DNA of 32,399 nt from a virus (IMGVR_UViG_3300031730_000199:1-32399); one strand, 5' to 3'; shown: positions 3,874 through 22,422, numbered from the stretch's first letter. Numbers and translations: made by a program. The notes: generated from the letters alone by a model not told the origin.

Positions 3874-3900
3874 CTTGGCTTCCATGCGGAACAGCGCGTT
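3874..3900 (+). promoter_or_regulatory. Leader element copy A
   Basis: First of six copies of a fixed design: CTTGGCTTC (3874-3882), six variable bases, then GAACAGCGCGTT (3889-3900). It ends 37 nt before the ATG of the small gene at 3938. Only short complementary arms are seen near it (CAAGC at 3856-3860 with GCTTG). An ATG inside the element (3884) is in frame with the gene and would add 18 residues beginning MRNSAFI. Function is unknown; see the findings. Confidence 0.7.
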
Positions 3901-3937
3901 CATACGTTCATCGTCAACACCATCAAAGGACACGGAC

Positions 3938-4159
3938 ATGAACCCGATCGATCAACTCCTCACCCGCATCGCCCAGCAGCACCTGCGCATCGACACGCTG
4001 GAGACGCGCAAGTCGGACGGCCTGGACTTCCACGACGTAGCGGTCTGGGGCGTGCGCGAGGCCCTCGAAGCCGCCTTCAACGCGGGTGTCGAACAAGGGA
4101 AGAAGCAAGCACTGCAGCAGGCACGCAAGGCCACGAAGTCAGAGAGCAGCAACGGCTGA
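3938..4159 (+). CDS. Small phage protein, DUF6900-like
   Basis: A 73-residue protein with the core LDFHDVAVWGVREALEAAF (about 29-47), resembling the small DUF6900 proteins of phages and plasmids (recalled similarity, not tested). No enzyme motif is visible; it is helical with a Lys/Gln-rich C-terminus. The start is the ATG at 3938. An in-frame ATG at 3884 inside leader element A would give an 18-residue extension, but the extension consists of the element itself and is probably leader. It is the first gene of the plus-strand block that lies between the terminase and methyltransferase genes. Confidence 0.65.
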   Translation: MNPIDQLLTRIAQQHLRIDTLETRKSDGLDFHDVAVWGVREALEAAFNAGVEQGKKQALQQARKATKSESSNG

Positions 4160-4171
4160 TCGCAAGCCACA

Positions 4172-4216
4172 GAAGCCAAGCGCAAAGCGCTTGGCTTCAG
4201 GCCCGAACAGCGCGTT
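4172..4216 (+). promoter_or_regulatory. Leader element copy B with perfect 12-bp hairpin
   Basis: GAAGCCAAGCGC (4172-4183), loop AAA, then GCGCTTGGCTTC (4187-4198): a perfect 12-bp stem. The 3' arm contains the first conserved box (4190-4198). Six bases later comes GAACAGCGCGTT (4205-4216), 40 nt before the ATG at 4257. There is no T-run after the stem, so it does not look like a simple intrinsic terminator. Confidence 0.8.
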
Positions 4217-4256
4217 CATCACGTCACCCAAACAACCCCCTGCAAAGGACCACGAC

Positions 4257-4853
4257 ATGACCACCATCCAACAACTGACCGCCACCCAACACGCCGTCCT
4301 GGCCTACGCCATCGAGCACAACGACGGCAAGATCACCTGGTTCCCCGACCAGGTCAAAGGCGGCGCCCGCAAGAAGGTGCTGGTTGGACTGTTCGGCCGC
4401 AGACTGATTGCGGCAGACGGCCCCGACTGGCTGGTGGCCGACGCCGGCTATGCGGCCCTGGGCCTCCAGCGGCCCGCGCCGATGCCGCTGGTGAACGACC
4501 CCGAGATCGAGGCCGTGGTGACCGCGGCGGAGGCCGAGTGGACCCGGCTCGACCTTCGACTGGATGCCCCGCAAGAGTCCGAGCAGCAAACGCAACCGCA
4601 GGCCGAGCAACCCCAGGAGCCGGTACCTCCCACCGCGGGCCAGAGCCGCACCCGCGAGAACACCAAGCAGGCCCTGGTGATCCAGATGCTCAAGCGCCCC
4701 GAAGGCGCGACGGTGGCCCAGATCATGGCGGCCACCGGCTGGCTCAACCACACGGTGCGCGGCACCTTGTCGGGTGTGCTGCGCAAGCGGCTTGGATTGA
4801 CTGTCGTCTCGGCCAGGAACCCGGAAGGCGTGAGCGCCTACCGCATCGCCTGA
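4257..4853 (+). CDS. DUF3489 domain-containing protein
   Basis: A 198-residue protein. Residues about 131-197 match the DUF3489 pattern: KQALVIQMLKRPEGATVAQI followed by MAATGWLNHTVRGTLSGVLR and a C-terminal Y-R-I. This is a winged-helix-like fold that may bind DNA. The N-terminal half (about 1-75) looks like a second helical domain (HAVLAYAIEHNDGKITWFPD). A Gln/Pro-rich linker at 105-128 joins the two. The family is common on phages and plasmids of proteobacteria, with no proven role. The start at 4257 lies 40 nt after leader element B; the frame is open upstream through the element, but no better start is seen. Confidence 0.82.
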   Translation: MTTIQQLTATQHAVLAYAIEHNDGKITWFPDQVKGGARKKVLVGLFGRRLIAADGPDWLVADAGYAALGLQRPAPMPLVNDPEIEAVVTAAEAEWTRLDLRLDAPQESEQQTQPQAEQPQEPVPPTAGQSRTRENTKQALVIQMLKRPEGATVAQIMAATGWLNHTVRGTLSGVLRKRLGLTVVSARNPEGVSAYRIA

Positions 4854-4868
4854 CCGGAGCGGCTCACC

Positions 4869-5099
4869 ATGCTGAGACTCATCACCATCCTGGAGAGCCT
4901 CCGGCGCCAGCCGCGCCGGCTCACCGACGAGGAGAACCTGTACCTCCACCATCTCGGCGACGAGCTGCAGCGCGCCCCCAGCGATGCGGCCCGCTGGCGC
5001 ATCCTCGAGAGAGAAGGCATGGGCCGATCCGACGGCTTCGATCTGGGCAGCGACGTCCTCGAACGGCTCGCTCAGTTGCGCCGCGCAGCGATGAACTGA
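4869..5099 (+). CDS. Hypothetical small protein
   Basis: A 76-residue, Arg/Leu-rich, wholly helical protein beginning MLRLITILESLRRQ. No family is recognised. A GGAG sequence lies about 9 nt before the ATG and the DUF3489 stop is 15 bp upstream, so the two genes are probably co-transcribed. It is the only early gene of the block without its own leader element, which fits it being the second gene of a two-gene unit. Confidence 0.6.
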   Translation: MLRLITILESLRRQPRRLTDEENLYLHHLGDELQRAPSDAARWRILEREGMGRSDGFDLGSDVLERLAQLRRAAMN

Positions 5100-5131
5100 G
5101 GCCCATGGCTGGCGCGGCGACCCACGCCTCA

Positions 5132-5188
5132 CCAAGCACCCGCCGATAGACACCCGCGACGCTTGGCTTCCATGCCGAACAGCGCGTT
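5132..5188 (+). promoter_or_regulatory. Leader element copy C
   Basis: Boxes at 5162-5170 and 5177-5188 with the six-base spacer CATGCC. The upstream arm CCAAGC (5132-5137) can pair with GCTTGG (5161-5166) across a long loop. An internal ATG (5172) opens a 21-codon frame beginning MPNSAFI, whose TGA overlaps the ATG of the next gene at 5234. This could be a translationally coupled leader peptide. Confidence 0.7.
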
Positions 5189-5233
5189 CATACACGTGTC
5201 GCGATTGACAACACCCACCACGAGAAGCCTCGC

Positions 5234-5593
5234 ATGAGCACCATGACCCTCACCATCGAACGTACCCCCCGCACCCTCACCTTCGGCGCCGCCGTTCTCG
5301 AGGTCGAGGAACTGGGCGTACGTCTACCCTTTTCCCGCGAGCCCGTGACCCTCAGCGAGGTCGGCGGCTATGGGCCGATCAGGATCTACGTCACCGAAAC
5401 CCACGCACTCACTCCCGACGAGTTCGACGCCTTCTCGCGCAACCTGCTGGTCTCGCGCGACTGGCTGCGCGGCAAGGGCGGCAGCGTGGCGGACGGCTAC
5501 CTCTGCGTCGAGATCACCGCGCCGGGCCGGCCCTACCTCTACGTCAACCCCGAGGGCTCGGACTACGCGCGGTATGTCTCAAGGCTCGGCTGA
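5234..5593 (+). CDS. Hypothetical phage/plasmid protein, 119 aa
   Basis: A mixed alpha/beta protein beginning MSTMTLTIERTPRTLTFGAA. The C-terminal stretch APGRPYLYVNPEGSDYARYV is of a type seen repeatedly in small proteins of mobile elements, but I cannot name a family with confidence. No catalytic motif, signal peptide or membrane segment is evident. The start follows leader element C by 45 nt; GAG and AAG runs in CGAGAAGCCTCGC could act as a weak ribosome site. The next gene is about 100 bp downstream behind its own leader element. Confidence 0.6.
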   Translation: MSTMTLTIERTPRTLTFGAAVLEVEELGVRLPFSREPVTLSEVGGYGPIRIYVTETHALTPDEFDAFSRNLLVSRDWLRGKGGSVADGYLCVEITAPGRPYLYVNPEGSDYARYVSRLG

Positions 5594-5603
5594 TTAAAAG
5601 AGT

Positions 5604-5651
5604 CGATCACGAGGCCCGCAAGGCCTTGGCTTCGTGATCGAACAGCGCGTT
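5604..5651 (+). promoter_or_regulatory. Leader element copy D with covarying hairpin
   Basis: CGATCACGA (5604-5612) pairs perfectly with TCGTGATCG (5632-5640). Inside the loop GGCC (5613-5616) can pair with GGCC (5622-5625). Conserved boxes are at 5625-5633 and 5640-5651. Here the long 3' arm is formed by the variable six bases and their flanks, not by box 1, unlike copy B. The ATG of the next gene follows 39 nt after the element. Confidence 0.8.
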
Positions 5652-5690
5652 ACTACTGCTGCCGCAACGATCCACGAACGGACCCTCACC

Positions 5691-5879
5691 ATGAACCAGC
5701 GCATCGCCAACCACACCAACTTCAACGCCGCCGACTACGCCTACCTGCACGCCAAGGACTGGACTGACGAAGAAATCCTGGCGCGCTGGGATGCCGAAGC
5801 CGCGCGCGGTGCCGGCCCCTGCGGCTGGGAGGCAGAGGTTGCACGCGCCAAGCTCGACAACGTCACGAAGCGCCGCTGA
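5691..5879 (+). CDS. Hypothetical small protein, 62 aa
   Basis: Begins MNQRIANHTNFNAADYAYLH and has the helical stretch AKDWTDEEILARWDAEAARG, ending in a basic tail. No family is recognised and no motif beyond a helix-rich profile is visible. It has its own leader element (copy D) 39 nt upstream and is followed by the hairpin at 5890-5917. Coding status is supported by the leader and by the intact frame, but the protein is short. A longer in-frame start upstream would run into the leader element. Confidence 0.55.
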   Translation: MNQRIANHTNFNAADYAYLHAKDWTDEEILARWDAEAARGAGPCGWEAEVARAKLDNVTKRR

Positions 5880-5889
5880 GACCTGGATT

Positions 5890-5917
5890 TGTCCTGACGG
5901 CCGGCGCCGCCAGGACA
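5890..5917 (+). terminator. Hairpin after the 62-aa gene, possible terminator
   Basis: TGTCCTG (5890-5896) pairs with CAGGACA (5911-5917), with a GC-rich inner stem between. It lies 10 bp after the stop of the 62-aa gene and abuts the stem of leader element E. No U-tract follows, so termination is uncertain; it may be part of a larger fold with element E. Confidence 0.4.
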
Positions 5918-5959
5918 GGAAGCCAAGAACGACTTGGCTTCCTCATCGAACAGCGCGTT
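5917..5959 (+). promoter_or_regulatory. Leader element copy E with perfect 11-bp hairpin
   Basis: AGGAAGCCAAG (5917-5927), loop AACGA, then CTTGGCTTCCT (5933-5943). The conserved box is again the 3' arm, as in copy B, but the stem ends differ. GAACAGCGCGTT is at 5948-5959, and the ATG of the next gene follows 38 nt later at 5998. Confidence 0.8.
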
Positions 5960-5997
5960 ACTACAAGCATCGCAACCATCAACGCCCAGGAGCACCA

Positions 5998-6363
5998 ATG
6001 ACCAACCACCCGCACATCCCCGCCACGCAGAACACCGAGTGGGGCTTCTTTGGTGGCATGAACGAACAGGCTGCAACCGCCTGGCCGATCGCAATGACCG
6101 CGATCTCCGACGCCACCGGCGAGACCCTGGCGTCCGTCCGGATCTTCCTCGACAGCCGCCACGGACGGCACTTTGCGGACGAAGTCCTGGGCCGGCAGCA
6201 TGGAGGCCAGGCGCTGGCTGACGCGATCCGCGCCACCATCCGGCAGTGGATGGACTGGAAGATCGGACGCCAGACCAGCAAGCAGTACGGCATCCCGCCT
6301 GGCATGCCCTACCTGACGGGCTTTGTGATCCACGGCGAGATCAACGAAGAGCTGGCAGCCTGA
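5998..6363 (+). CDS. Conserved hypothetical protein of mobile elements, 121 aa
   Basis: Contains FFGGMNEQAATAWPIAMTAI, then a segment LDSRHGRHFADEVL and the C-terminal YGIPPGMPYLTGFVIHGEI. This arrangement is widely seen in proteins of plasmids and integrative elements, as I recall, but no function is established to my knowledge. The protein is soluble and alpha-rich, with conserved W, H and G positions suggesting a compact fold. The start at 5998 (CCAGGAGCACCAATG) has a good AGGAG 7 nt upstream. It is preceded by leader element E. Confidence 0.72.
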   Translation: MTNHPHIPATQNTEWGFFGGMNEQAATAWPIAMTAISDATGETLASVRIFLDSRHGRHFADEVLGRQHGGQALADAIRATIRQWMDWKIGRQTSKQYGIPPGMPYLTGFVIHGEINEELAA

Positions 6364-6383
6364 TCCTCGACACGGAGCGCCTG

Positions 6384-6611
6384 ATGAACAACTCCGCAAC
6401 CGAACGCGAACAGGCGCTGCGTTGGCTGATTGCCAACCGGCGTCAGGATGTCTCCATCGAGCAGGCGGTGCGCGTGGTGTGCGCGGTGCTGCCCCGCGAT
6501 CTCGCAACGATGCAACTGCTGCGTCGTATCGCCGAAGAAGAGGATGGCAAACAACCCGCCGTGCCCAAACTCAACTGGCGGTCACCTCCAGGTCTGCCGC
6601 CTCGCGGGTAG
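6384..6611 (+). CDS. Hypothetical small protein, 75 aa
   Basis: Begins MNNSATEREQALRWLIANRR and is helical (LATMQLLRRIAEEEDG) with a proline-rich tail. No family is recognised. It lies 20 bp after the preceding gene and is likely co-transcribed with it. Its last about 40 bases overlap the end of the methyltransferase gene on the opposite strand (stop at 6571), so the two transcription units converge here. Confidence 0.5.
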   Translation: MNNSATEREQALRWLIANRRQDVSIEQAVRVVCAVLPRDLATMQLLRRIAEEEDGKQPAVPKLNWRSPPGLPPRG

Positions 6612-7818
6612 CCTTCTTGCCGGTGAAGTCCTCCCACCGGCGCACGATCACATCGGCGTACTTCGGATCCAACTCCATCAACCGGGCGCGGCGGCCGGTC
6701 TTCTCTGCCGCGATCAAGGTGGTGCCCGAACCACCGAAGCAGTCCAGCACGGTGTCGCCGGGCCGGCTGGAATTGCGGATTGCCCGCTCCACCAGTTCGA
6801 CCGGCTTCATCGTTGGATGCAGATCGTTCTTGTGCGGCTTCTTGATGTGCCACACGTCGCCCTGGTCGCGGTCGCCGCACCAGTGCCGGCTGGCGCCTTC
6901 GCGCCAGCCGTAGAGGATCGGCTCGTACTGGCGCTGATAGTCGGCGCGGCCGAGCGTGAACGTGTTCTTGGCCCAGATGATGAAGGTGGACCACTTGCCG
7001 CCGGCCGCACGGAACGCGGACTGCAGGGTGTCCAGCTCGCTCGAACTCATCGCCACGTACACCGCCCCGTCGCAGCTGGCCAGCGCCGGGCTCAGCGCGT
7101 CGGTCAGGAACTGCTCGAACCCATTGCCCAGGTTGTCGTTCAGGATCGCGCGGTTCTTGCCGCCCAACTTGTCCTTGGGCGTGTTGGCGTAGTTCACGTT
7201 GTAGGGTGGATCCGTAAAGACCATGTCCACCTGCTCGTCTCCGAGCAAGCGCTCGTAGCTCTCAGCCTGCGTCGAGTCGCCGCAGAGCAGGCGGTGTGGG
7301 CCCAGCACCCAGACGTCGCCAGGACGCGAGATCACCGGGGTCTGTTCATCGGCCACTTCCGGTACGGCGTCCTCATCCGTCCGGCCCTCGGCTGCGCCGT
7401 CGTCAGCCAGCAAGTCGGCCAGTGCATCGGCATCGAAGCCGGTGAGCGAGAGGTCGTAGTCGTCGTCCTGCAGGGCCGCCAGCTCAACACGCAGCAGCGC
7501 ATCGTCCCAGCCAGCGTTTTCGGCGATGCGGTTGTCCGCGATCACCAGTGCCCGGCGCTGCGTGGGGCTCAGGTGCTCCAGCACCACCACCGGCACAAGG
7601 TCCAGCCCGAGCTTCTGTGCGGCGGCCAGGCGCCCGTGGCCGGCCACGATCACGCCGTCGGCACCGGCCAGGATCGGATTGGTAAAACCGAATTCGACAA
7701 TCGAGGCTGCGATCTGGGCGATCTGCTCGACCGAGTGGGTGCGGGCGTTCCTGGCGTAGGGCAGCAGCCTGGTGATGGGCCACTGCTCAATCTTGCCGGC
7801 CAGCCAGGAGACCGTCAT
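6571..7818 (-). CDS. ParB-like domain/DNA methyltransferase fusion (D-P-P-Y type)
   Basis: A 415-residue protein. Residues about 10-135 are a ParB/Srx-like domain with GVIVAGHGRLAAAQKLG at 55-71. The C-terminal half is an amino-methyltransferase of the beta order: catalytic DPPY (203-206) comes before the AdoMet site DCFGGSGTT (359-367), with HPTMKPVEL near 334. DPPY points to N6-adenine methylation. A phage enzyme of this kind would modify its DNA against host restriction or in a regulatory way; no restriction partner is present. The ATG overlaps the stop of the upstream paralogue (ATGA), so the two are coupled. The start was chosen for that overlap; a longer frame upstream is not coding. 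Confidence 0.92.
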   Translation of the reverse strand: MTVSWLAGKIEQWPITRLLPYARNARTHSVEQIAQIAASIVEFGFTNPILAGADGVIVAGHGRLAAAQKLGLDLVPVVVLEHLSPTQRRALVIADNRIAENAGWDDALLRVELAALQDDDYDLSLTGFDADALADLLADDGAAEGRTDEDAVPEVADEQTPVISRPGDVWVLGPHRLLCGDSTQAESYERLLGDEQVDMVFTDPPYNVNYANTPKDKLGGKNRAILNDNLGNGFEQFLTDALSPALASCDGAVYVAMSSSELDTLQSAFRAAGGKWSTFIIWAKNTFTLGRADYQRQYEPILYGWREGASRHWCGDRDQGDVWHIKKPHKNDLHPTMKPVELVERAIRNSSRPGDTVLDCFGGSGTTLIAAEKTGRRARLMELDPKYADVIVRRWEDFTGKKATREAADLEVTAS

Positions 7819-9215
7819 GGCGCGGCCTCCTTCGCCTGCTGGCGCCGCGCCGCCACCGCCTCGAAGTCCTGACCCGTGCCCTGAAGCGTCACCGGCACGC
7901 CGGGGAAGTTCTGCTGGAAGCGCTTGATGGCAACGTCCACGTACTCCGGTGCGATTTCCATCGCACGGCACGCGCGGCCGGTGCGCTGAGCGGCCAGCAT
8001 CGTGGTGCCGCTGCCGCCGAATGGCTCAAACACCACGTCGCCTGAGTCCGAGTACGCATCGATGATGAACTCGGGCAGCGCGACAGGGAACACCGCTGGG
8101 TGGTCGATGTCCTGGCCGATCTTTCCCTTGTGGCGCATCACGCGGATCACCGAGTCGGGGATGCGCATGTCCTGCGTGGGCTGGCCCTTGTGGGCCCATC
8201 CGTTGACCGTGCCATCTTTGCTGCGCATCGCCGTGGACGAACCATCGGCGCGCAGGTGCGATTCCTGGCCCGCGTGCTTGCAGGGCACGGTCTTGTGTGG
8301 CTTGCGAGTGTGCCGGTTGAAGTGGAAGATGAACTCGAAGCTCGGTGCCAGGCGGCCTTGCCAATCGCCCGGCATCCCCGGCCCCTGGTCCCAGACGTAC
8401 CAGGCGAAGCGCCGCCAGTCCTGTGCGCGCATCCAGCCGAGCCAGCCGTCCCAGTACGGGATCACCTCGTTGTCGCGGTGGATCAGGCCGAGGTTGACCA
8501 GCACCTGGCCGTCGTCTGCCATCGGTACGGCGGCGAACACACCACGCATCAGGGTGTCCCAGTCGCCGGCACCACCGGTGGTGTAGTCGCGTTGTTTGCC
8601 GTAGGGCGGCGACGTGAAACACAGCCGGGCCTGTTCGCCCTGCATCAGCGCGGCGACCACGGCAGGGTCGCAGGCATCGCCGCAGACCAGGCGGTGCGAT
8701 CCGAGCACCCAGACATCGCCCGCGCGGGACACTGGCACGGCAGGAGCCGGCGGGACATCGTCAGCGGCCTCGGAGTCTTCGTCCTGCTCCACGTCGCCGT
8801 CACCACCCGCCACGTCATCGGCCAGCAGGGCGTCGATCTCGGCGTCCTCGAAACCGGTGAGCGCCAGGTCGTAGCCGGCCTGCGACAGCTCGGCAAGTTC
8901 AAGCGCCAGCAGTTCATCGTCCCACCCCGCGTCGAGTGCCAGACGGTTGTCCGAGATGACGTAGGCGCGCTTCTGCGTGGGCGACAAGTGCCCCAGTTCG
9001 ATCACCGGCACTTCGTCCAGCCCCAGCTTGCGCGCCGCAGCCAGCCGACCGTGACCGGCGATCAGGCCGTTGGCGCCATCGACCAGCAACGGGTTCGTCC
9101 ACCCATACTCGACGATGCTGGCGGCGATCTTGGCCACCTGCGCGTCGGTGTGGGTGCGCGGATTGCGGGCGTAGGGAATCAGCGCCTCGACCTTGCGGTA
9201 CTCGACGTGGAGCAT
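7815..9215 (-). CDS. ParB-like domain/DNA methyltransferase fusion (T-S-P-P-Y type)
   Basis: A 466-residue paralogue of the downstream gene. The ParB-like domain (about 5-130) has GLIAGHGRLAAARKLG at 50-65. An acidic linker (about 132-153, rich in D and E) leads to the methyltransferase, with TSPPY at 201-205 and FEPFGGSGTT at 396-405. The S-P-P-Y form is seen in N4-cytosine and some N6-adenine enzymes, so target base and sequence differ from, or cannot be inferred from, the neighbour. The ParB-like domain probably helps bind DNA or a nucleotide; ParB-like domains bind CTP in other proteins, which is only a possibility here. There is no clear Shine-Dalgarno sequence before the ATG. Confidence 0.92.
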   Translation of the reverse strand: MLHVEYRKVEALIPYARNPRTHTDAQVAKIAASIVEYGWTNPLLVDGANGLIAGHGRLAAARKLGLDEVPVIELGHLSPTQKRAYVISDNRLALDAGWDDELLALELAELSQAGYDLALTGFEDAEIDALLADDVAGGDGDVEQDEDSEAADDVPPAPAVPVSRAGDVWVLGSHRLVCGDACDPAVVAALMQGEQARLCFTSPPYGKQRDYTTGGAGDWDTLMRGVFAAVPMADDGQVLVNLGLIHRDNEVIPYWDGWLGWMRAQDWRRFAWYVWDQGPGMPGDWQGRLAPSFEFIFHFNRHTRKPHKTVPCKHAGQESHLRADGSSTAMRSKDGTVNGWAHKGQPTQDMRIPDSVIRVMRHKGKIGQDIDHPAVFPVALPEFIIDAYSDSGDVVFEPFGGSGTTMLAAQRTGRACRAMEIAPEYVDVAIKRFQQNFPGVPVTLQGTGQDFEAVAARRQQAKEAAP

Positions 9216-9306
9216 GTTCGTTTGGGTGTCCCAAAAGCAGCGGCCCGCCCGGGGACGGCGTGAACCCGGAGCGGACCGCGAACGGCGGTGTGGTGTTGAA
9301 GTGAAT

Positions 9307-9339
9307 GAGCCCGCCGACGGTCAGGCCGTGGGCGGGCTC
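9307..9339. repeat. Strong hairpin upstream of the methyltransferase genes
   Basis: GAGCCCGCC (9307-9315) pairs with GGCGGGCTC (9331-9339), and ACGG (9317-9320) pairs with CCGT (9326-9329) inside. No T-run lies on either side. It is about 92 bp before the methyltransferase start on the minus strand, so it would fall in that leader. It could be a transcription barrier or a leader structure. Confidence 0.6.
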
Positions 9340-9351
9340 AGGAAGGGATCA

Positions 9352-9420
9352 GGTTTGCGGGACGGGGAGCACGAGGTGCAAACCACTGCAACCCGCAAAC
9401 CCCTGCAAACCTTGGTTTGC
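9352..9420. promoter_or_regulatory. Cluster of five GCAAACC sites
   Basis: The heptamer GCAAACC occurs at 9378, 9395 and 9405. Its complement GGTTTGC starts at 9352 and 9414. The last two form a near-palindrome, TGCAAACCTTGGTTTGCA (9404-9421). Five sites in 69 bp look like a protein-binding array: an operator of the methyltransferase genes or an origin iteron set. Confidence 0.65.
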
Positions 9421-9654
9421 AATCTGACGCTAGGGCAATGTCGCGCTGTGGACGCCCGCATGGCGATATGGCCAGGAAGGACCCCTTTTGCCGGGGGCCC
9501 GGTCCTCGCTGTCGCCACTTGCCAGAAGATAGACCAAATACTACGGCCAAACCCCCCAATCTGTTGCAGTGCCCGTGAGCGCCAAAAAGGACAACGGGCC
9601 AAAACGGGGGACAAACGCTGGACGCATTACCCTACGTTGCCATTTCATTCAGAA

Positions 9655-9680
9655 GGGCCGTCGCAGTGGTGCCACGGCCC
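9655..9680 (-). terminator. Hairpin after the DUF6362-like gene
   Basis: On the minus strand GGGCCGT and ACGGCCC form a 7-bp stem about 8 bp after the stop codon at 9688, followed by TTCTG. The U-tract is short, so it is a weak candidate for a terminator at the end of the replication operon. Confidence 0.45.
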
Positions 9681-9687
9681 TCGCTGC

Positions 9688-10098
9688 TCACCGGCCGGGC
9701 GTCGCCTGTGCCGGTGCGTTCAACCGCTCAGCCACCACCAGCAACGCCTTCTGCCAGCGCCGCCATGCCGTGGTCCGGTCGCAGGCAAAGCGGATCGTGA
9801 TGTCCCGCCAGCCACGGCGCTTGGCCCGCATCCACACGAGGTGGCGCTGCTCGACCTCCAGCCACTGCACCCAGCGCATCACCTCCAGCATGCGATCAAT
9901 CGCCTTGGGCTCGGGCGGGAAGGGCCGGTGCACCTTCTCATCGGCCGAGAACGACTCCCACTCGTTGCGCAGCACGACGGGCCAGGTGTTGAAGTAGCCC
10001 TGCACCCGCACAGGCGGCAGGCGCTGCCCGGTGTCGGCCGCTTCCTGGAAGCGCAGCGCGACGTCCTCGATGGTCCACTCAGGCTTGCGATCAACCAC
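9688..10098 (-). CDS. DUF6362-like phage protein with C-terminal HTH
   Basis: About 136 residues. The N-terminal half has EWTIEDVALRFQEAADTGQR and LPPVRVQGYFNTWP. The C-terminal half ends in RRGWRDITIRFACDRTTAWR and a further helix, a pattern like a sigma region 4 or ArpU-type helix-turn-helix. I take the GTG at 10098 as start: GGGAGG lies 8 nt upstream, and the codon overlaps the stop of the preceding gene. An ATG at 10119 is an alternative. Being last in the early operon suggests a late-gene activator acting on the terminase operon. That role is inference from position and HTH. Confidence 0.75.
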   Translation of the reverse strand: MVDRKPEWTIEDVALRFQEAADTGQRLPPVRVQGYFNTWPVVLRNEWESFSADEKVHRPFPPEPKAIDRMLEVMRWVQWLEVEQRHLVWMRAKRRGWRDITIRFACDRTTAWRRWQKALLVVAERLNAPAQATPGR

Positions 10099-15504: not shown

Positions 15505-16373
15505 TGCGATTGCTCCGTGAAGTCGTGGGTGTGGGTGGTGTCAGGGGTGGTGTTCTTGGCCTGGTGGACCGGCGTCATGGCGCTGGCGCACTTCGCGATC
15601 AGTGCCCCCAGGTCGGGCGGCTCCAGCAGCTCAAGCCGGCCGCTGCGGTCCTTGGCCGGGAAGCCAAACGGATTGACCGTGTGGGTGACGAAGGCTCGGT
15701 ACGTGCTGTCGTCCTCGGCCCGGATCTCGGCCAAGGTCACGACCTCGTCGACGATGCCGGGCAGTTCCAGGCTGGTCTTGCTGCCCTCGATCTGCGGCAC
15801 GAACACCTTGCGGTTGAAGTCGTCCAGGCGTTCGTCCAGGATGCAGACGAAGATGACGTTCTTGCCGCGGGCGTGCTGCAGATGCGTCAGGGCGCCGACC
15901 ATCTCCTGGCCCAGCAGCCCGTAGGCGGCGCGCAAGTCGAGCTTGCCGGTGCGGTCGCTGACCGCGCCGGGCTGCGCCTTGCACCACGCGAAGCACTGGC
16001 GCGACAACTGCGTGATCGAGTCCAGGAAGAAGGTCTGGTAGTGCTCGAGCTGGGCCGGGTCGCCGAACTTCTCCACGACGTGGTCGTAGTGCGCCTGCGA
16101 GAAGCTGCTCGCGGGCGATAGCGAGCGGTCCGGGCCTGCGAGGAAGACAAAGAAGTCGCGGCTCTCGGGCCAGGACGCCGGGCGGATGGTGTCGCCCGGC
16201 CAGTCGGCCACGGCCAGGTCGCCAGCCTCGATGTCGAGGAACAGCGTGGTGGCGGGGTCGAGGTCCTTCAGGCGCGAGGTCTTGCCGATGCCGGACTTGC
16301 CCAGCAACAGCAGCTTCACGCCTTTGCGCTCAGCCATGCGCTGGGCCGCAGACACGATGGGAAGCCGGCTCAT
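15501..16373 (-). CDS. RecA-like AAA ATPase, Sak4-type phage recombinase
   Basis: A 290-residue protein. Walker A GKSGIGKTS is at 25-33, FLDIEAGD at 45-52 and Walker B FFLDS at about 115-119. This short RecA-core layout, without the extra N- and C-terminal domains of RecA, fits the Sak4/AAA_24 phage ATPases that promote strand annealing. The start ATG 16373 overlaps the stop of the preceding gene, and the stop overlaps the next start. A longer frame to 16691 exists but would read through the upstream gene and is rejected. Sak4 proteins need an SSB partner, here perhaps the next gene. Confidence 0.88.
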   Translation of the reverse strand: MSRLPIVSAAQRMAERKGVKLLLLGKSGIGKTSRLKDLDPATTLFLDIEAGDLAVADWPGDTIRPASWPESRDFFVFLAGPDRSLSPASSFSQAHYDHVVEKFGDPAQLEHYQTFFLDSITQLSRQCFAWCKAQPGAVSDRTGKLDLRAAYGLLGQEMVGALTHLQHARGKNVIFVCILDERLDDFNRKVFVPQIEGSKTSLELPGIVDEVVTLAEIRAEDDSTYRAFVTHTVNPFGFPAKDRSGRLELLEPPDLGALIAKCASAMTPVHQAKNTTPDTTHTHDFTEQSQ

Positions 16374-16879
16374 GCGTCGGTCCAATCGAATGTCAGCGTG
16401 ATGGCCGCCTTGCCGGGTTCCACCGTGCGCGCACCGGCGAACTGCTGCTGCAGCACTGGCGGCCAGTTCGTGTACTTCGATTCGGGCACCGAGAGTTTGA
16501 CGTCGAGGTAGGACTCGATCGGCTCGCCGGACGCGACGATGCGCTGGGCGATCTCGCCCAGTTGCTTCTGGTCCCAGCTGACCTTCTTGGGCTGCTCGAA
16601 CTTGACGCGCAACGGGCCGTCGTTGACGTGTGCGGTGCCGAAGTCGCGGCCGGACTCGCGCAGCGCGGTGCGGGCCTGCTCGCCGTAGCACTGCTCGAGC
16701 GCTGCGTCGAACTTGGTCCGGGTTTTCTTGAGCGTGGCCTGGGCGGCGTCGAGGTGGGCATCAATGGCGCACTTGTGCTCGGGCGCCAGCTTTGCCAGTT
16801 GGCTCACGGACAGCTCCGCGAGGTTGAGGCCCAGCTCAGCGGGCAGAACGCTCAGGTCGTAGGGGGTTGGGTTGCTCAT
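16370..16879 (-). CDS. Hypothetical phage protein in recombination operon, 169 aa
   Basis: Helical in the middle (AHLDAAQATLKKTRTKFDAA) and beta-rich at the C-terminus (VEPGKAAITLTFDWTDA). The stretch VPESKYTNWPPVLQQQF is a recurrent feature of phage proteins I have seen near recombination genes. I know no function. GAGG lies about 9 nt before the ATG. It is 11 bp after the HTH gene and overlaps the Sak4-like gene, so it is part of the same transcript. Confidence 0.6.
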   Translation of the reverse strand: MSNPTPYDLSVLPAELGLNLAELSVSQLAKLAPEHKCAIDAHLDAAQATLKKTRTKFDAALEQCYGEQARTALRESGRDFGTAHVNDGPLRVKFEQPKKVSWDQKQLGEIAQRIVASGEPIESYLDVKLSVPESKYTNWPPVLQQQFAGARTVEPGKAAITLTFDWTDA

Positions 16880-16890
16880 CGCCGCCTGCC

Positions 16891-17154
16891 TCACGAGTAC
16901 GCCCGGGTGAAGGTCGAGTAGCGCGCAACGCGCCGCTCGAAGGCTTCGACCTCGGAGATCAGGTAGGTGACACGGGCGCCGAGCTTGCAGAAGACCGGGC
17001 CGAGCTGTTCTTGGCGCCAGCGGCGCAGGGTCTTGACCGAGAGCCCCCAGCGGGTGGCGAGTTCGGTTTCGTCGAGGGCCAGGCGCGCGGGCTCTGCTTG
17101 CGGGCGCTGCTGGGCATGCCGTGCAGGTTTGTGAATCGGGACTTGGACTTGCAT
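16891..17154 (-). CDS. Helix-turn-helix protein, first gene of the replication operon
   Basis: An 87-residue protein. LDETELATRWGLSVKTLRRW (about 26-45) is an HTH of the MerR/AlpA kind, followed by a wing (LGARVTYLISEVEAFERRVA). The start is ATG 17154, with AAGGAGG nine bases upstream; an in-frame ATG at 17184 lacks this. Being the first gene of the minus operon, and adjoining the four-repeat array at 17204-17244, it is a candidate regulator of its own promoter or of the divergent gene. That link is inference. Confidence 0.8.
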   Translation of the reverse strand: MQVQVPIHKPARHAQQRPQAEPARLALDETELATRWGLSVKTLRRWRQEQLGPVFCKLGARVTYLISEVEAFERRVARYSTFTRAYS

Positions 17155-17203
17155 TTCGATGTGCCTCCTTGATGAATAGGGCACATCGAAGTCTCCGCAC
17201 GGA

Positions 17204-17244
17204 TTTGTGGTCCGTTTGTGGTTCGTTTATGGGGCCATTTATGG
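17204..17244. promoter_or_regulatory. Four helically phased TTTRTGG repeats
   Basis: TTTGTGG at 17204 and 17215, then TTTATGG at 17226 and 17238. The spacings are 11, 11 and 12 bp, so all face one side of the helix. They lie between the HTH gene (start 17154, minus) and the second Cas4-like gene (start 17337, plus). This looks like an operator or iteron array; no promoter hexamers were firmly identified around it. Confidence 0.7.
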
Positions 17245-17336
17245 TTCTGCCGCAGCCCTCGGTTTGCGGCGTGGCTGTTCGACTCGGACTGCTGAACGGT
17301 GCGACTTATTGGCGCGGTCTCGGGCAAACTTCCGCT

Positions 17337-18236
17337 GTGCGAACGCCATCCGTCACTTCAATCGAACCACGCGGATCGCAGGGCCGTGCCCCAACCAAAA
17401 CGCCCTGGGAACGCTTCGCCCTGGATGTCCTGCCGGTGACCTACATCGCCGAGCAGTGCTACTGCGAACAGCGGGTGCACCTGTGGCTGAAGAAGCCGAG
17501 TTCGATGGTGTCGATTCCGCGTGAGAAGGAGATGCTCGGGGGCCCGGCACTTGCCCTGCGGCACGCCGCAGACGCGGGGCTCACCTTCCACGCGCAAGCC
17601 GCCGCGCTTTCCCGGCCTGTCACTCAGACCACGCTTCGCAAGGTCCTTCGGTCAGAGCCGTCGGTGGTGTTGGTCGAGTCGCCGCTGCAGGCCCTGTTCG
17701 AGGGTTTTCCCATCACCGGGATACCTGATGCGGTGCACTTCGAGCAGGCAGTGGCGCGCTGCGTTCTCGACTACAAGGTCACCGACTCGAACCAGTTGCA
17801 GATGAGCCACCGCGTGCAGTTGTGGCTGTACGGCTGGCTGTTGCAAGAGTCCAGCTTTAAGTTGTCCGATGCCCTGATGGTCAGCGTGCTTGTGCCCAGC
17901 GCGAGCGCGGTCGCCTTCGAGAAACTTAACGAGGTCGAGCGTCAAGACTTGGCGGTGACGGTGCACCACCATGCTCGCGCCGTCGTCGATGGCGAGCCGG
18001 AGCGGGAGAACTGGTACGTCAAGAAGCTGGCGTTGTCCGATGGGTTCTGGGTGCGGTTGCGCATCTTTCGGTATGACCGGCGAAAGGCCAAGCGCGAGTT
18101 GGCGTTCTTCGCGCAGTACTGGAGAGGTGAACGTGCGGCGATTCCATCTAAAAACTTGCGCAAGTGCCGCGTGTGTCTCTACAACAGCACGGGCGCGTGC
18201 AAGAAAGCCCTCGTGCCCTTTGAGGGCGCTCCGTAG
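17337..18236 (+). CDS. Second PD-(D/E)XK nuclease, Cas4-like
   Basis: About 299 residues. Cysteines C41/C43 near the start (IAEQCYCEQRVHLWL) and KCRVCLYNSTGACKKA at the C-terminus suggest an iron-sulphur cluster. Catalytic motifs are GIPD (D131), VLDYK (D145, K147) and Q161 to Y165. The start is uncertain: I use GTG 17337, because the protein's conserved part begins just after it; ATGs at 17230 and 17240 fall within the repeat array. It is transcribed away from the operon that holds the other Cas4-like nuclease (only the shared motif plan links them), and converges with the unknown gene ending at 18436. Its substrate cannot be told from sequence. Confidence 0.82.
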   Translation: MRTPSVTSIEPRGSQGRAPTKTPWERFALDVLPVTYIAEQCYCEQRVHLWLKKPSSMVSIPREKEMLGGPALALRHAADAGLTFHAQAAALSRPVTQTTLRKVLRSEPSVVLVESPLQALFEGFPITGIPDAVHFEQAVARCVLDYKVTDSNQLQMSHRVQLWLYGWLLQESSFKLSDALMVSVLVPSASAVAFEKLNEVERQDLAVTVHHHARAVVDGEPERENWYVKKLALSDGFWVRLRIFRYDRRKAKRELAFFAQYWRGERAAIPSKNLRKCRVCLYNSTGACKKALVPFEGAP

Positions 18237-18413
18237 CCACGGATGCCGACGAAGTGCTTGGCAGTACCTCGCGCCGCGCTCGGTGCCTGCCCCTGCAACG
18301 ACGAACACCTGCCGCAATTCTCCGTGGCGCGCATGTCCCGCGTGCGTGAGGATCTGGCGTCCGGCGACGCAGCCGAAGCAGCCGAAGCAGCACGTGTTCC
18401 ACGGGTGAGGTAA

Positions 18414-18434
18414 CAGCAGGGGATGGTCCTGCTG
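18414..18434 (-). terminator. Hairpin at end of the 318-aa gene
   Basis: CAGCAGG (18414-18420) pairs with CCTGCTG (18428-18434) around a 7-base loop, directly after the stop at 18436 on the minus strand and followed by TTACC. A plausible weak terminator for the immunity block. Confidence 0.5.
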
Positions 18435-18435
18435 G

Positions 18436-19392
18436 TCATGGTTTGCGGCGCACCCTGTACCGCGCCCGCTGGGCCTTCTCGATCACATCTTCGCGAGCGG
18501 CCACGCCGCCGAAGGCATCGTCGAACGACTGGTAGCCGGTGTTGGCCAGCGCGTTGACCTCGGCCCACGACAGTTCCGGCGGCGCCTTGTTTTCCACACC
18601 CCACATCGTCTTGACGATCTTGGCCCGCTCGGGCGACAACTCGCGCGACTGCTTGAAGTGGGGCAGTCTCAGGCGCAGGCCCTGCAGGAACTGCTCAGGC
18701 TCGGGAACACTGGACGCCACCCGGCTGCGCAGAACCCGCTCGAACGCTGGCGCATCGAACCGAGCCTGGCCCTGGTCGTCCAGGCCGATGAAGTCGTTCA
18801 GCACGCGCGGCGCATGGACATGCCATGGTTCGGCGGCGACCGCCCGTAGGAGCAGGACGATCCCGCCGCACGGCCAGATCGGGTCATTCAGGACCGCTCG
18901 GAGTGCCTCCACCGGCGCCCGCGCCCACAGCCGGGCCACGAACACCGGGACCCAGTCGTCGCTCCCGGCGACGCGGGCCGCGCCCAAGTGCCACAGGTGG
19001 TCCGGTACCCGAGCCGGCTGTCGAGAGCGGTCGCGCCGCTCGATGCCGATCCAGTCCGCCAGATCGTCCAGCCAGGCCTGCACGTTGAACGAGTAGACCG
19101 CGATCTCCTCCAGCGCTTGCGTGAGCCTGCAGGGCCGATAGCCTGGTGCCGTGTAGCTGAACGTGCCGGCCTCTTCGTCGATCTCGACTTCCACGTCGAT
19201 CTCGTCGTCAAACAGCGGTACCGGGATGTGCGACAGGTGGCCATGCGGAACAATCCAGCGCCGCTGCAGGAATGGCTGCGCCCGGCTGAGCAACTGGGGC
19301 GCGCAGATCCGCTCCTGCGGGCTGCGCACCCGCTCCATCGTGGACAGGAACTGCTCAAACAGGCAGCCCGGCTGCATCACGCCCGAGGGCAT
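18436..19392 (-). CDS. Hypothetical protein, last gene of the immunity block
   Basis: About 318 residues, acidic and rich in Trp and Pro in places (for example VQAWLDDLADWIGIERRD; IWPCGGIVLLLRAVAA). It has no recognised domain, signal peptide or clear membrane segment; a beta-rich part at about 50-95 includes DDEIDVEVEIDEEAGTF, and the rest is helical. The start is set at ATG 19392, where GAGG lies six bases upstream and overlaps the stop of the 466-aa gene. ATG 19413 and GTG 19419 are possible. It is probably translated together with the 466-aa gene, so they may work as a pair. I do not recognise the function. Confidence 0.6.
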   Translation of the reverse strand: MPSGVMQPGCLFEQFLSTMERVRSPQERICAPQLLSRAQPFLQRRWIVPHGHLSHIPVPLFDDEIDVEVEIDEEAGTFSYTAPGYRPCRLTQALEEIAVYSFNVQAWLDDLADWIGIERRDRSRQPARVPDHLWHLGAARVAGSDDWVPVFVARLWARAPVEALRAVLNDPIWPCGGIVLLLRAVAAEPWHVHAPRVLNDFIGLDDQGQARFDAPAFERVLRSRVASSVPEPEQFLQGLRLRLPHFKQSRELSPERAKIVKTMWGVENKAPPELSWAEVNALANTGYQSFDDAFGGVAAREDVIEKAQRARYRVRRKP

Positions 19393-19400
19393 CTGCCGCC

Positions 19401-20801
19401 TCAGTACTCCCATGCGCACCCCAGCCGGACGAGCTGCGCGAAGACCAGGTCCCGGTCTGCCTCGGTCTTGCAGCGGTCGCTCAGCCCGTTCGGTGCGCGG
19501 ACCTCCACCGTGACGGTGCGCGCCCGGCGCTGGGCCTGGCGCGCAAGACGCAAGGACAGCTTGACCTCCAGGATGTCATAGCCGACGAAGTCTGCAAGCC
19601 CGTAGTCCTCGCGCGCCACGTCGTAGACACTGCGCTCTTCATCGCGATGCCGCCGGATGCGCAGGTCGCTCTGCACGATGCGAGTCATCGAGTGGCCGCG
19701 GAACGGGACCTCCCGGGTGTGCGACCTGGACACGACGAGATGCTGGATCGCGATGTCTTCGATGCCATCGATGCGGTGGGTCTTGAGGCGCGCCAGCATG
19801 CCCGCGTCTGAGAAGCCGATCAGTTCGAATTCGCGCATCGGCATGGTGCGGATGTCGCCGCTGCCGCCCAGCACCACGTCACGGAACAGCGCCGCCAGCG
19901 CCGGCCGACTGGCCTTGTCGTCGCAGAAGATGCCGAGCGCGCCTTGCCCAGGCTGCCAGGCGAAACGGACCTGGGTCACGGCCGGTTCGTCCCGCTCGAT
20001 CACCTCGCCGTCATCCAACTGCTGGTAGTGCACCCGCTTGCCGTTGAACAAGGCGCTGAGCGTGTAGAGCGTGACCGGCTCGCCAGGCTGGGCCGCATCG
20101 CGGCGCACGAACGCTTCGATCACGATGTCCTCCGGATCGATCTGAGGAAACATCGCCACCAGGCCCGCCCGCAGTGCCGCCTGCGTGTCGTCGTCCAGCA
20201 GCGGTTGCACGTCCTTGGGACCGAGGTAGTGGCTGGAGTACTTGCCGGCCTGCGCCTGGCGCAGCATCTCCTGGCGGGTCTCGGCATGGTCGAAGCAGCG
20301 GTCCTTGGATCCGGCGATGCACTCCTGACCCAGGTACAGCCACAGGGCCAGGGTGAACTTGTCGTCAGGCACCGGGATGCTGGCGCCGCTGTCCGTGGCA
20401 GCGGGGCCGGCGTCGTCCAGCACCTCACCCATGGCCAGCGCGCCGGATTCGTCGCACAGCAGCACGATGCGTTCGGCTGCACGCTCCAGGCGGGCCTGGA
20501 TGGCGATTGAGAAATCCGCGACCGCCGCGAACACGGCATTGCGCGAAGCGACGGCAAGCGGGCCGACGGCCTCGACCAGCGGTGCCACCGAGGCCGGACT
20601 GCCGGTGGCATGCTCCAGCAGGGTTTGCAGCAGGGCAGGGCGCCGCGCCCGGCGTACCAGCTTGACGAAGTGCTCCATGTGGGCCAGCCGATCCGGCCCC
20701 TCGTCACGGGTGCGGGCCCGCGCCTTCTTCTCAGTCTCAGGCATCAGCGGCGCCGCCGCGGGGAGTTGTTGTTGTTCGACGGAGGCGGCCGTGGTCGGCA
20801 T
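19401..20801 (-). CDS. Hypothetical 466-aa protein
   Basis: No family is recognised. The first about 40 residues are low-complexity and charged. Residues about 40-110 are helical (EHFVKLVRRARRPALLQTLL). The middle (about 150-330) is alpha/beta, with FDHAETRQEMLRQAQAGKYS and QVRFAWQPGQGALGIFCDDK. The C-terminal third is basic and strand-rich (ILEVKLSLRLARQAQRRART; TVTVEVRAPNGLSDR). The last part resembles a nucleic-acid or partner-binding sheet, but this is only an impression. It has its own probable promoter and leader after the terminator at 20855-20882, with AAGG 9 nt before the ATG. It is coupled to the 318-aa gene. Its place next to repressor and protease suggests phage immunity or exclusion. 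Confidence 0.6.
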   Translation of the reverse strand: MPTTAASVEQQQLPAAAPLMPETEKKARARTRDEGPDRLAHMEHFVKLVRRARRPALLQTLLEHATGSPASVAPLVEAVGPLAVASRNAVFAAVADFSIAIQARLERAAERIVLLCDESGALAMGEVLDDAGPAATDSGASIPVPDDKFTLALWLYLGQECIAGSKDRCFDHAETRQEMLRQAQAGKYSSHYLGPKDVQPLLDDDTQAALRAGLVAMFPQIDPEDIVIEAFVRRDAAQPGEPVTLYTLSALFNGKRVHYQQLDDGEVIERDEPAVTQVRFAWQPGQGALGIFCDDKASRPALAALFRDVVLGGSGDIRTMPMREFELIGFSDAGMLARLKTHRIDGIEDIAIQHLVVSRSHTREVPFRGHSMTRIVQSDLRIRRHRDEERSVYDVAREDYGLADFVGYDILEVKLSLRLARQAQRRARTVTVEVRAPNGLSDRCKTEADRDLVFAQLVRLGCAWEY

Positions 20802-20854
20802 GCAGTGCTACCTTTCAGATTGAATGCGCGATTGCGCGAGTGGTTAACAGTCGA

Positions 20855-20882
20855 GCGAAAGAAATGCCGGCACGCGGCCGGC
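20855..20882 (-). terminator. Intrinsic terminator after the ImmA-like gene
   Basis: On the minus strand GCCGGC (20882-20877), loop CGCGT, GCCGGC (20871-20866), then ATTTCTTTC. The stem with a U-rich tail lies about 20 bp after the stop at 20903 and would separate the HTH-ImmA transcript from the downstream 466-aa gene. Confidence 0.6.
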
Positions 20883-20902
20883 GGGGATTCAGTGAACTGG
20901 GG

Positions 20903-21730
20903 TCAGCGGCGAGCGTCGTTGCGCGGTGCGGAGGGTGGCAGGTAGCCGTAGCGCTCCATGCGGACTTCGATGAAGCGCCGGTGCACGCCGAAGCGCGGCG
21001 CCAGGGCCTTTTGCAAGGCCTCCACGGCACCGGCCTGACCCTCGGCAGTCAGCTGCAATGACGCACCCGGCAGGTCCGGATCCAGTGAAGGGCTGTGCTG
21101 GATCTGCACCCCGTGCGCCGCGGCCAGGTCCTCGATCGCGCGCCGCAGGGCCAGTCGCGGCACGAGCAGGGAGCCCATGAACTCGTTGGCGCGTAGTTCG
21201 GCAAAGTGGACCTCGCGCGGGATCTGAAGCCCAGGCGCGGCCGCTGCTGCCAGATGATCGGCATCACGCGTCGTGGTGCGGTAGGCCTTATGCGCCCGGG
21301 GATCCACGTCGTCGAACAAGCCGGGCCCGCGCGCCGCGGCGGCAATCCAACCCGGGGCATCGAAGATGGCATGCCCCAGTTCGTGCGCGAAGGTGCTGAG
21401 CATCAGCGCGTCGCCGGATTCCGTCGCCACCGGCGAGATGGCCAGCACGGCGGCGTCCGTCCCGGCGTGGGGATCGAACTCGCACACGCCCAGCACCGGC
21501 TGGCCTTGTTCGTCAGTGACCGGGTGCTCGGTGTCCACCCACAGATCGAAGGCGATGCCGTTGATCCGCAGGCCGTCCAGGCCCTTCAGGGTGGCCAGCG
21601 GGATCGCATCGGTCTGTGCCGTGACGAGCTGCAGGCGGGCCTGCGCCGCGACGCGCTCCACTTCAGAATGCTTCAGGTACCGGGGCAGCTTGCGGTCGCA
21701 GCACCGGTAGTCCAGGGTCAGCACCGGCAT
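20903..21730 (-). CDS. ImmA/IrrE-family metallopeptidase
   Basis: A 275-residue protein. The zinc motif HELGH is at 116-120 (preceded by ALMLSTFA), and E178 in FAELRANEFMGSLLVP is the likely third ligand. Members cleave or inactivate phage and integrative-element repressors of the XRE class, thereby inducing the element, as in the ICEBs1 ImmR/ImmA pair. The gene starts one base after the XRE gene's stop, so both are co-translated. That tight coupling to an XRE repressor supports the repressor-protease role here; the substrate is inferred. Confidence 0.88.
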   Translation of the reverse strand: MPVLTLDYRCCDRKLPRYLKHSEVERVAAQARLQLVTAQTDAIPLATLKGLDGLRINGIAFDLWVDTEHPVTDEQGQPVLGVCEFDPHAGTDAAVLAISPVATESGDALMLSTFAHELGHAIFDAPGWIAAAARGPGLFDDVDPRAHKAYRTTTRDADHLAAAAAPGLQIPREVHFAELRANEFMGSLLVPRLALRRAIEDLAAAHGVQIQHSPSLDPDLPGASLQLTAEGQAGAVEALQKALAPRFGVHRRFIEVRMERYGYLPPSAPRNDARR

Positions 21731-22009
21731 TCACTGGCCCCCAGCGCTCTGGCGGCGGTACATGCGAACCACGGCACCCACGTCCTGCTGCATGTCCGGC
21801 GGCAGGCGCCGGGCCTCGATGAACGCCTCGTCCGGGTCCTCGCCCAGGATCTCGGCCGCATTGCGGATCAGGTCGTCCTTGGGGGGCTTTTCCATCTCGC
21901 GCTCGATGCGTGACCAGTACGCGGGCGAGATGTCCAGGCGCCGGGCGAAGTCGTTCATCGCGATGCCCTTGGCGTCCCGCTTCTGCCGGATGTATGAGCC
22001 GAATCCCAT
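21731..22009 (-). CDS. XRE-family repressor-like HTH protein
   Basis: A 92-residue protein beginning MGFGSYIRQKRDAKGIAMND, with the XRE helix-turn-helix at about 5-60 (ARRLDISPAYWSRIEREMEK). The remainder is a short helical tail, so it lacks the long C-terminal domain of CI-type, RecA-cleaved repressors. Induction would therefore need an outside protease, which the next gene supplies. GAGG lies seven bases before ATG 22009. Its promoter overlaps an SOS box. Confidence 0.87.
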   Translation of the reverse strand: MGFGSYIRQKRDAKGIAMNDFARRLDISPAYWSRIEREMEKPPKDDLIRNAAEILGEDPDEAFIEARRLPPDMQQDVGAVVRMYRRQSAGGQ

Positions 22010-22046
22010 GCGATGACCTCGTTGCGTGATTAGTGAACGGAGAGAA

Positions 22047-22062
22047 CTGTATAAATATACAG
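22047..22062. promoter_or_regulatory. LexA (SOS) box overlapping the repressor promoter
   Basis: CTGTATAAATATACAG is a perfect inverted repeat of seven bases with a two-base centre and keeps the CTG-N10-CAG form of the beta/gammaproteobacterial LexA site. On the minus strand it covers the -10 element of the repressor promoter. It could also be the repressor's own operator. Confidence 0.75.
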
Positions 22063-22074
22063 GTGTGCTGTCAA
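22048..22074 (-). promoter_or_regulatory. Promoter of the repressor-ImmA operon
   Basis: -35 TTGACA (22074-22069) and -10 TATACA (22053-22048), with 15 bp between, read on the minus strand. The spacing is a little short. The expected start point gives a leader of about 30 nt before ATG 22009. Confidence 0.6.
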
Positions 22075-22203
22075 CAGGCACTGCGTGGGGTGCCGTCCGG
22101 GCGTGCGGCTCACCGGCTTCGGTGCCGATTGCCCTGCGTTGCCATCCTGTTCAGGGATTCCGGCCGAGCATCCTGCCCGTTGCAATTCCCCGGATCTGTC
22201 CCG

Positions 22204-22422
22204 ATGAACATCGAACTCGATGCCCCCGCCGAGATGCCGGCCGGCGCACGCGCCGCCGAGATCATGGCCATCCTGGCCCGCGCCATCGTGCGGACCCTGG
22301 TGGCACCGGACGGCACGCCGGAGGCCGGCGCGGCCACTTGCCGCAAAGAGGCGGTTGGCCTTGGCTTTTCGGCCAACCAGCGCGTTCATACAACCCCTTC
22401 TCAACCGGAGCCGTTGTGCTGA
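22204..22422 (+). CDS. Hypothetical small protein before DUF2924
   Basis: A 72-residue protein beginning MNIELDAPAEMPAGARAAEI, with a helix MAILARAIVRTLVAPDG. Short proteins of this kind, with an ILARAIVR-like helix, often precede DUF2924 genes, as I recall. Its last third (GFSANQRVHTTPSQPEPLC) is the translation of leader element F and is probably not functional sequence, so the gene and the leader overlap. The stop overlaps the GTG of the DUF2924 gene. Evidence that it is a real gene is moderate. Confidence 0.5.
   Translation: MNIELDAPAEMPAGARAAEIMAILARAIVRTLVAPDGTPEAGAATCRKEAVGLGFSANQRVHTTPSQPEPLC
22353..22386 (+). promoter_or_regulatory. Leader element copy F with covarying hairpin
   Basis: GGTTGGCC (22353-22360) pairs with GGCCAACC (22371-22378) around a ten-base loop. 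Boxes CTTGGCTTT (22360-22368) and AACCAGCGCGTT (22375-22386) keep the 9-6-12 layout. Where the second box differs from the others (AACC instead of GAAC), the 5' arm differs to match. The GTG of the DUF2924 gene follows 29 nt later. Confidence 0.8.

Follow-up and report, generated by a model that had tools for sequence, protein, structure and literature searches.

The virus record IMGVR_UViG_3300031730_000199:1-32399, a stretch of 32,399 nt that was analyzed at its full length and is called the window here, has the gene content of a tailed phage, which is probably temperate. In addition to terminase genes, it encodes a repressor with a helix-turn-helix (HTH) domain, a primase, a Cas4-like exonuclease, and Sak4 proteins. 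Divergent from the terminase genes lies a set of small genes, each headed by a copy of a 27-bp element, and a further copy heads a unit of DUF2924 and serine recombinase genes (Table 1). The element consists of two boxes with six variable bases between them, and its six copies, labeled A to F, are exact matches at the positions given in a preliminary description of the window; 100 dinucleotide shuffles of the window gave no match, so that none is expected by chance. As also stated in that description, the copies end 29 to 45 nt before start codons, with measured distances of 37, 40, 45, 39, 38, and 29 nt for A to F, respectively. The evidence presented below suggests that the element acts as a promoter.

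Table 1. Element copies, stem-loops, and genes of the window, with predicted promoter parts
Feature	Coordinates	Strand	Details
Terminase gpA	1276-3366	-	
nu1	3296-3832	-	
Copy A, first of the cluster	3874-3900	+	-35 TTGGCT 3875-3880; 17-bp spacer; -10-like GTTCAT 3898-3903; predicted start 3910; exact match and promoter layout; putative promoter
Small-gene set (DUF6900, DUF3489, 119-aa, 62-aa, phrog_8020)	3938-6363	+	Headed by copies A to E
DUF6900 gene (behind copy A)	3938-4159	+	
Stem-loop between DUF6900 and DUF3489 genes	4174-4200	+	3' arm overlaps copy B -35; folding, excess in tandem copies only; putative 3' end
Copy B	4190-4216	+	-35 4191-4196; -10-like GTTCAT 4214-4219; predicted start 4226; putative promoter
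DUF3489 gene (behind copy B)	4257-4853	+	Pfam PF11994, E 1.2e-27
Copy C	5162-5188	+	-35 5163-5168; -10-like GTTCAT 5186-5191; predicted start 5198; putative promoter
Gene for 119-aa protein (behind copy C)	5234-5593	+	
Stem-loop after 119-aa gene	5604-5641	+	3' arm overlaps copy D spacer; folding, swap test; function putative
Copy D	5625-5651	+	-35 5626-5631; -10-like GTTACT 5649-5654; predicted start 5661; putative promoter
Gene for 62-aa protein (behind copy D)	5691-5879	+	
Stem-loop after 62-aa gene	5918-5944	+	3' arm overlaps copy E -35; folding, swap test; function putative
Copy E	5933-5959	+	-35 5934-5939; -10-like GTTACT 5957-5962; predicted start 5969; putative promoter
phrog_8020 gene (behind copy E)	5998-6363	+	
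HTH repressor	21734-22081		
Copy F	22360-22386	+	-35 22361-22366; -10-like GTTCAT 22384-22389; putative promoter, weaker case than A to E
DUF2924 gene (behind copy F)	22416-22886	+	Heads DUF2924-serine recombinase unit

In line with the preliminary description, the element is not limited to the window; hundreds of related phage loci carry it, ahead of both the same genes and others. Relatives were added by protein searches with three of the small-gene families, and a position-weight scan of 468 loci with a threshold of 18 bits recovered 772 copies, which keep the fixed length of 27 nt and the strict boxes and 219 of which are nonredundant; the reversed sequence of these loci contains no copy above 18 bits. 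The exact pattern is present in at least 117 stretches of bacterial genomes and at least 119 of viral contigs, and 448 of the 449 copies among the matches listed are exactly 27 nt long. Where the records name a host, it mostly belongs to the Burkholderiales, Rhodocyclales, Lysobacterales, or other proteobacteria; Nitrospira and a Geobacter metagenome-assembled genome also occur. Nearly all of the long phage records (48 of 50) carry the element, mostly in several copies each, and the reversed pattern is absent from all 50. Across 12 host genomes, exact copies form clusters within prophage-like stretches, such as 58.9 to 109.2 kb of Nitrospira defluvii, and a few sites with two mismatches lie outside these clusters. 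AcaML1 is the sole carrier in a collection of named phages, and an 85-nt query comprising the element and its flanks has no match in plasmid and E. coli genome collections. A repeated sequence ahead of several adjacent genes might be expected from a decayed, functionless dispersed repeat that spread by duplication along with the genes, but this explanation is scarcely credible, as the boxes are near-invariant while the flanks and genes diverge, and the element is kept before orthologous and nonorthologous genes in many host groups and in almost every long phage record. Prophages also contain a variant with one mismatch and a GTG end (CTTGGCTTTGTCGGCCAACAGCGCGTG) on the opposite strand, 15 to 16 kb away from the small-gene copies (G053:C6:114637-114663, G052:C22:34365-34391, and G055:C9:1853-1879).

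The proteins encoded behind the element belong to about 25 credible families, most of which are small and uncharacterized, and an integrase module is also preceded by copies. Among the matches listed, 332 of 449 copies have their start codon 36 to 39 nt past the element, and in 403 a Shine-Dalgarno sequence matches over at least 4 nt. The gene order behind the copies is mostly constant (families 1-0-3-2), with insertions. An attC-like gene-cassette site, perhaps for the serine recombinase behind copy F, would account for the roughly one-to-one ratio of copies to small genes, for hairpins with variable arms and a varied gene content, and for the copy at the head of the recombinase unit. Such a role is very improbable, because the element is far stricter than attC and keeps a narrow distance to the ATG, the order of the genes varies little, the hairpin is missing from the first copies of clusters, and the A-tracts and start signature described below would be left unexplained.

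The 219 nonredundant copies share the near-invariant parts (G)CTTGGCTT and AACAGCGCGTTCAT, with the six free bases between them. The two boxes of the preliminary description are thus real, but the conserved unit is longer than these, as it includes a G before box 1 (82%), CAT or ACT after box 2, and a YRYC signature (Y, pyrimidine; R, purine) at element positions 35 to 38. Numbered from a predicted start at element position 36, these parts have a promoter-like layout. The -35 sequence TTGGCT (212 of 219 copies) is near the sigma-70 sequence TTGACA, and a spacer of exactly 17 bp, compared with 16 to 18 bp in sigma-70 promoters, separates it from a -10-like hexamer, which is GTTCAT in 159 copies and GTTACT in 29 and lies immediately downstream of a conserved CAGCGC block. 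Seven nucleotides after this hexamer, there is a pyrimidine at -1 in 97% and a purine at +1 in 82% of copies. The YR step at position 36 is present in 86 to 94% of copies in the groups with the ATG 35 to 48 nt beyond the element, which indicates that its position is set by the element rather than by the ATG, and the start signature mostly keeps its distance to the element while the position of the start codon varies over about 13 nt. Upstream of the boxes, A is enriched in three tracts, spaced 11 bp apart with centers at -41, -52, and -63 (lag-11 autocorrelation, 0.37); the phase score is 2.72, compared with a circular-shift null of 0.006 (standard deviation [SD], 0.16), and these tracts are found in copies both with and without stems. 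By position and helical phase, the tracts near -41 and -52 would correspond to an UP element, the known subsites of which span -37 to -45 and -45 to -58 (PMC2613000). From about +3, the leader is A/C-rich and unstructured, and it is typically 28 to 30 nt long, with a Shine-Dalgarno site and the ATG.

Several observations weigh against a promoter. Sigma-70 prefers A at -11 in a -10 hexamer near TATAAT; of this A and the T expected at -7, the element has the T and lacks the A, and a sigma-70 promoter scanner found no promoter in the region. The YR step at position 36 is present in merely 44% of copies in which the ATG distance is 25 to 34 nt, copy F is without it, and the A-tract enrichment is moderate, at 40 to 58% A. 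Furthermore, no recognizer of the element was found. A sigma factor shared by the phages was rejected, with Sigma70_r4_2, the one sigma domain covered by the search, scoring over the cutoff in 1 of 50 phage records. Sigma-32 and extracytoplasmic function (ECF) promoters appear unlikely, as their spacings and boxes do not fit the element. As a variant of the promoter explanation, the boxes might serve mainly as an operator at which a phage repressor, bound over an ordinary promoter, silences the genes in the prophage. The strict two-part site with its free 6-bp center, the HTH repressor of a phage that is probably temperate, and the copies before the integrase module speak for an operator. We consider it improbable as the main function, since boxes placed exactly at -35 and -10 and reaching to the start signature are not needed for a repressor alone, the site has no dyad, and the GAA of box 2 is often replaced.

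Stems with 8 to 12 bp had been noted at copies B, D, E, and F, and folding confirmed them, with 12 bp in copy B (GAAGCCAAGCGC/GCGCTTGGCTTC), 9 to 10 bp in copy D (CGATCACGA/TCGTGATCG), 11 bp in copy E (AGGAAGCCAAG/CTTGGCTTCCT), and 8 bp in copy F (GGTTGGCC/GGCCAACC), while no comparable perfect stem was found at copies A and C. As the stems are out of register between copies, pairing was assessed by mutual information and by swap tests, in which the pairing of an element with the 45 nt directly upstream of it was compared with its pairing with upstream sequences taken from other copies. Stems of at least 10 bp were seen with the own upstream sequence in 11 cases, compared with 1.7 expected, and stems of at least 8 bp that include at least 3 spacer bases in 12 cases, compared with 2.8 expected, so the covariation of the upstream stems that had been proposed is above chance. 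The excess is clear in the phrog_8020 and 119-aa families and absent in DUF6900. The covariation claimed for box 2 of copy F and its partner is not supported by three orthologous loci (L036, L037, and L140), which keep the upstream arm as GTTGGC or GTACGC but combine this arm with a nonpairing CTGCCCGACC or CTGCCCAACC, and in which the stem is not retained.

Copies were classified as tandem copies when another element lies within 1,300 nt upstream and as first copies when none does. The mean energy of tandem copies is -17.03 with their own upstream sequence and -15.67 with swapped sequences (SD, 0.14), whereas the corresponding values of first copies, -12.80 and -12.47 (SD, 0.14), show almost no excess. 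The boxes, A-tracts, and YR step are common to first and tandem copies, and the stem enrichment occurs in tandem copies only. This does not support the earlier view of the stem as a working part of the leader of the gene behind it, and it fits a stem that belongs to the end of the gene before it and whose 3' arm is also part of the promoter that follows. The stems may thus be 3' ends of preceding genes that overlap the promoter of the following one. Standard intrinsic terminators on the + strand were rejected, as the stems have no T-run after the 3' arm (mean of 1.1 T in 8 nt, with none having 5 or more). The sequence before the 5' arm is A-rich, and the stems are possibly leftward terminators or ends made by Rho and trimming.

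Inside the element, the potential pairs (TTC/GAA, GC/GC, and an outer GCGC) are invariant or vary without compensation, showing no covariation, and they are broken in diverged copies, including GTTCAGAGCGTT and CAGCAGCGCGTC. An internal hairpin was rejected on these grounds. In four rare, diverged loci (L400, L448, L458, and L463), CTTGACTTC or CTTTACTTC occurs together with GAAGTGAAGCGTT or GAAGTAGAGCGTT, and these form a perfect ACTTC/GAAGT stem of 5 to 6 bp within the element. The statement that the element could not be matched to a known riboswitch family is upheld by the Rfam search, which gave no bacterial match, the sole match being a chance microRNA elsewhere in the sequence. The preliminary description suggested a folded leader RNA, or a DNA hairpin, that acts on the gene behind it. 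In a leader RNA element, the boxes and stem would operate within the downstream gene's mRNA, perhaps by binding a phage protein or small RNA that controls translation, and transcription would originate farther upstream. The single orientation and the presence of a gene behind each copy stand, and the narrow distance of the element to the Shine-Dalgarno site and ATG, the A/C-rich unstructured leader, and the covarying upstream stems are all compatible with such a leader. However, the promoter geometry places the element upstream of the start site and hence not in the mRNA that it drives, the first copies are nearly without stem excess, and a covarying helix is not found in every copy, nor do pairs within the element covary. 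The boxes are preceded by A-tracts in helical phase, and only about 40 bp between copy A and the divergent nu1 would be left for any other promoter. We therefore assign a low probability to a role as a leader RNA element.

Copy F differs from copies A to E in its setting, as it lies within the 3' end of a 72-aa open reading frame (ORF; 22204-22422) that overlaps the start of DUF2924. A promoter at this site may be embedded in a coding region, and part of the sequence of copy F may be explained by the coding constraint of the 72-aa ORF. The orthologues of the copy F region in L036, L037, and L140 retain much of the 3' sequence of this ORF.

Because the -10-like hexamer has no A at -11 and the sequence is nearly unchanged across phages of different hosts, we infer that a phage-encoded factor or activator enables the host polymerase to act at the element. 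DUF3489 is encoded in 49 of the 50 phage records, which is weak evidence, as these records were picked by the element or by DUF3489 neighbors. Its AlphaFold2 model (mean predicted local distance difference test [pLDDT] score, 83) has two helix-wing units with a poorly predicted linker, and the best fold matches in the PDB are mostly winged-helix proteins, none with an E value below 0.001; a sequence search of the PDB gave no match. As a predicted double winged-helix protein, DUF3489 is only a candidate for the regulator of the element. It would be a new kind of phage initiation factor if it, or another protein, opened a -10 without A at -11 and thereby made the promoter usable in many hosts, which seems rather unlikely at present. 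Three dissimilar DUF3489 proteins from several loci have a near-identical linker insert (RSEVSRGEAERVRST), which would fit the arrival of a short mobile repeat at the same position in each. In a diverged Eleftheria relative, GAGCGTTCAT or GAGCGTGAAT, in which the -35 boxes are changed, precede homologous genes, and these variants may reflect a promoter and its reader changing together.

On this evidence, the element is quite probably a phage-specific promoter present in several copies, each of which starts short transcripts with the help of phased A-tracts and a phage factor, with the stems ending the preceding transcripts. Transcription would start at element position 36, typically 28 to 30 nt upstream of the ATG, and RNA polymerase would probably be aided by the A-tracts, which are one helical turn apart, in the manner of an UP element. 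The transcript from each copy would be short and cover one or two small genes, and between tandem genes, the stem-loop past the stop codon would mark the end of the preceding transcript and overlap the next promoter. A phage-encoded factor, for which DUF3489 is one candidate, would let the host polymerase use the promoter. The element thus apparently represents a widespread family of phage promoters with an unusual -10 that is undescribed in Rfam or in the literature searched, in which no paper was found that places the element in a phage context or assigns a function to DUF3489 or DUF2924; a paper citing AcaML1 mentions only general sigma-70 predictions, made for another phage. If this is true, a large group of uncharacterized phages and prophages would share a regulon defined by a single promoter sequence, and the approximately 25 small-gene families and the recombinase module under one control could be tested jointly as early, lysogeny, or antidefense genes. 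A required phage factor would add a further way in which phages redirect the host polymerase, and the stems show that structures beside repeats may belong to the neighboring gene.

In both of two adjoining leftward proteins at 6574-9212, a ParB-like N-terminal part is joined to a DNA methyltransferase. At 22416-25127, DUF2924, the serine recombinase, and a second recombinase-like protein (phrog_14161) follow in a row, and an identical arrangement in AcaML1 is annotated as the large and small subunits of a "site specific recombinase." The region 27786-32399 contains long open frames on both strands (for example, 27828-31226 on the + strand and 27786-29924 and 29982-32399 on the - strand); the two minus-strand frames have no PHROGs match.

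The element and its stems resemble several known systems in part. Like intrinsic terminators, the stems lie directly behind the stop codons of tandem genes, and they differ from them in the missing T-run on the + strand. The start-associated sequences and their extended form (SAS/ESAS) of cluster K mycobacteriophages, which infect Gram-positive hosts, comprise a 13-bp sequence, GGGATAGGAGCCC, at the start codon, for which no -35/-10 layout is described (PMC3203893). Both they and the element are short repeats with a single orientation that precede some of the small nonstructural genes, and about half of the SAS have an inverted repeat upstream, whereas the element has a different sequence, does not have GGGATAGGAGCCC at the start codon, and lies about 38 nt before the ATG. 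Pm of phage Mu is a Mor-dependent middle promoter with a partial UP element (PMC4390567). In Mu, Pm occurs once, and its Mor dyad is centered at -43.5, whereas the element occurs in many copies with no dyad upstream of the -35; no Mor-like protein was found among the window proteins searched. Both would be phage promoters for the host polymerase with UP-element contacts and a phage activator, the last being presumed for the element. A sigma-70 promoter with an UP element differs from the element, which has a -10 of GTTCAT or GTTACT without A at -11, the CAGCGC block, and a third A-tract at -63, and it resembles the element (layout in PMC2613000) in the 17-bp spacer, the -35 (TTG.C., 4 of 6 positions), the A-tracts at about -41 and -52, and the YR step 7 nt past the -10.

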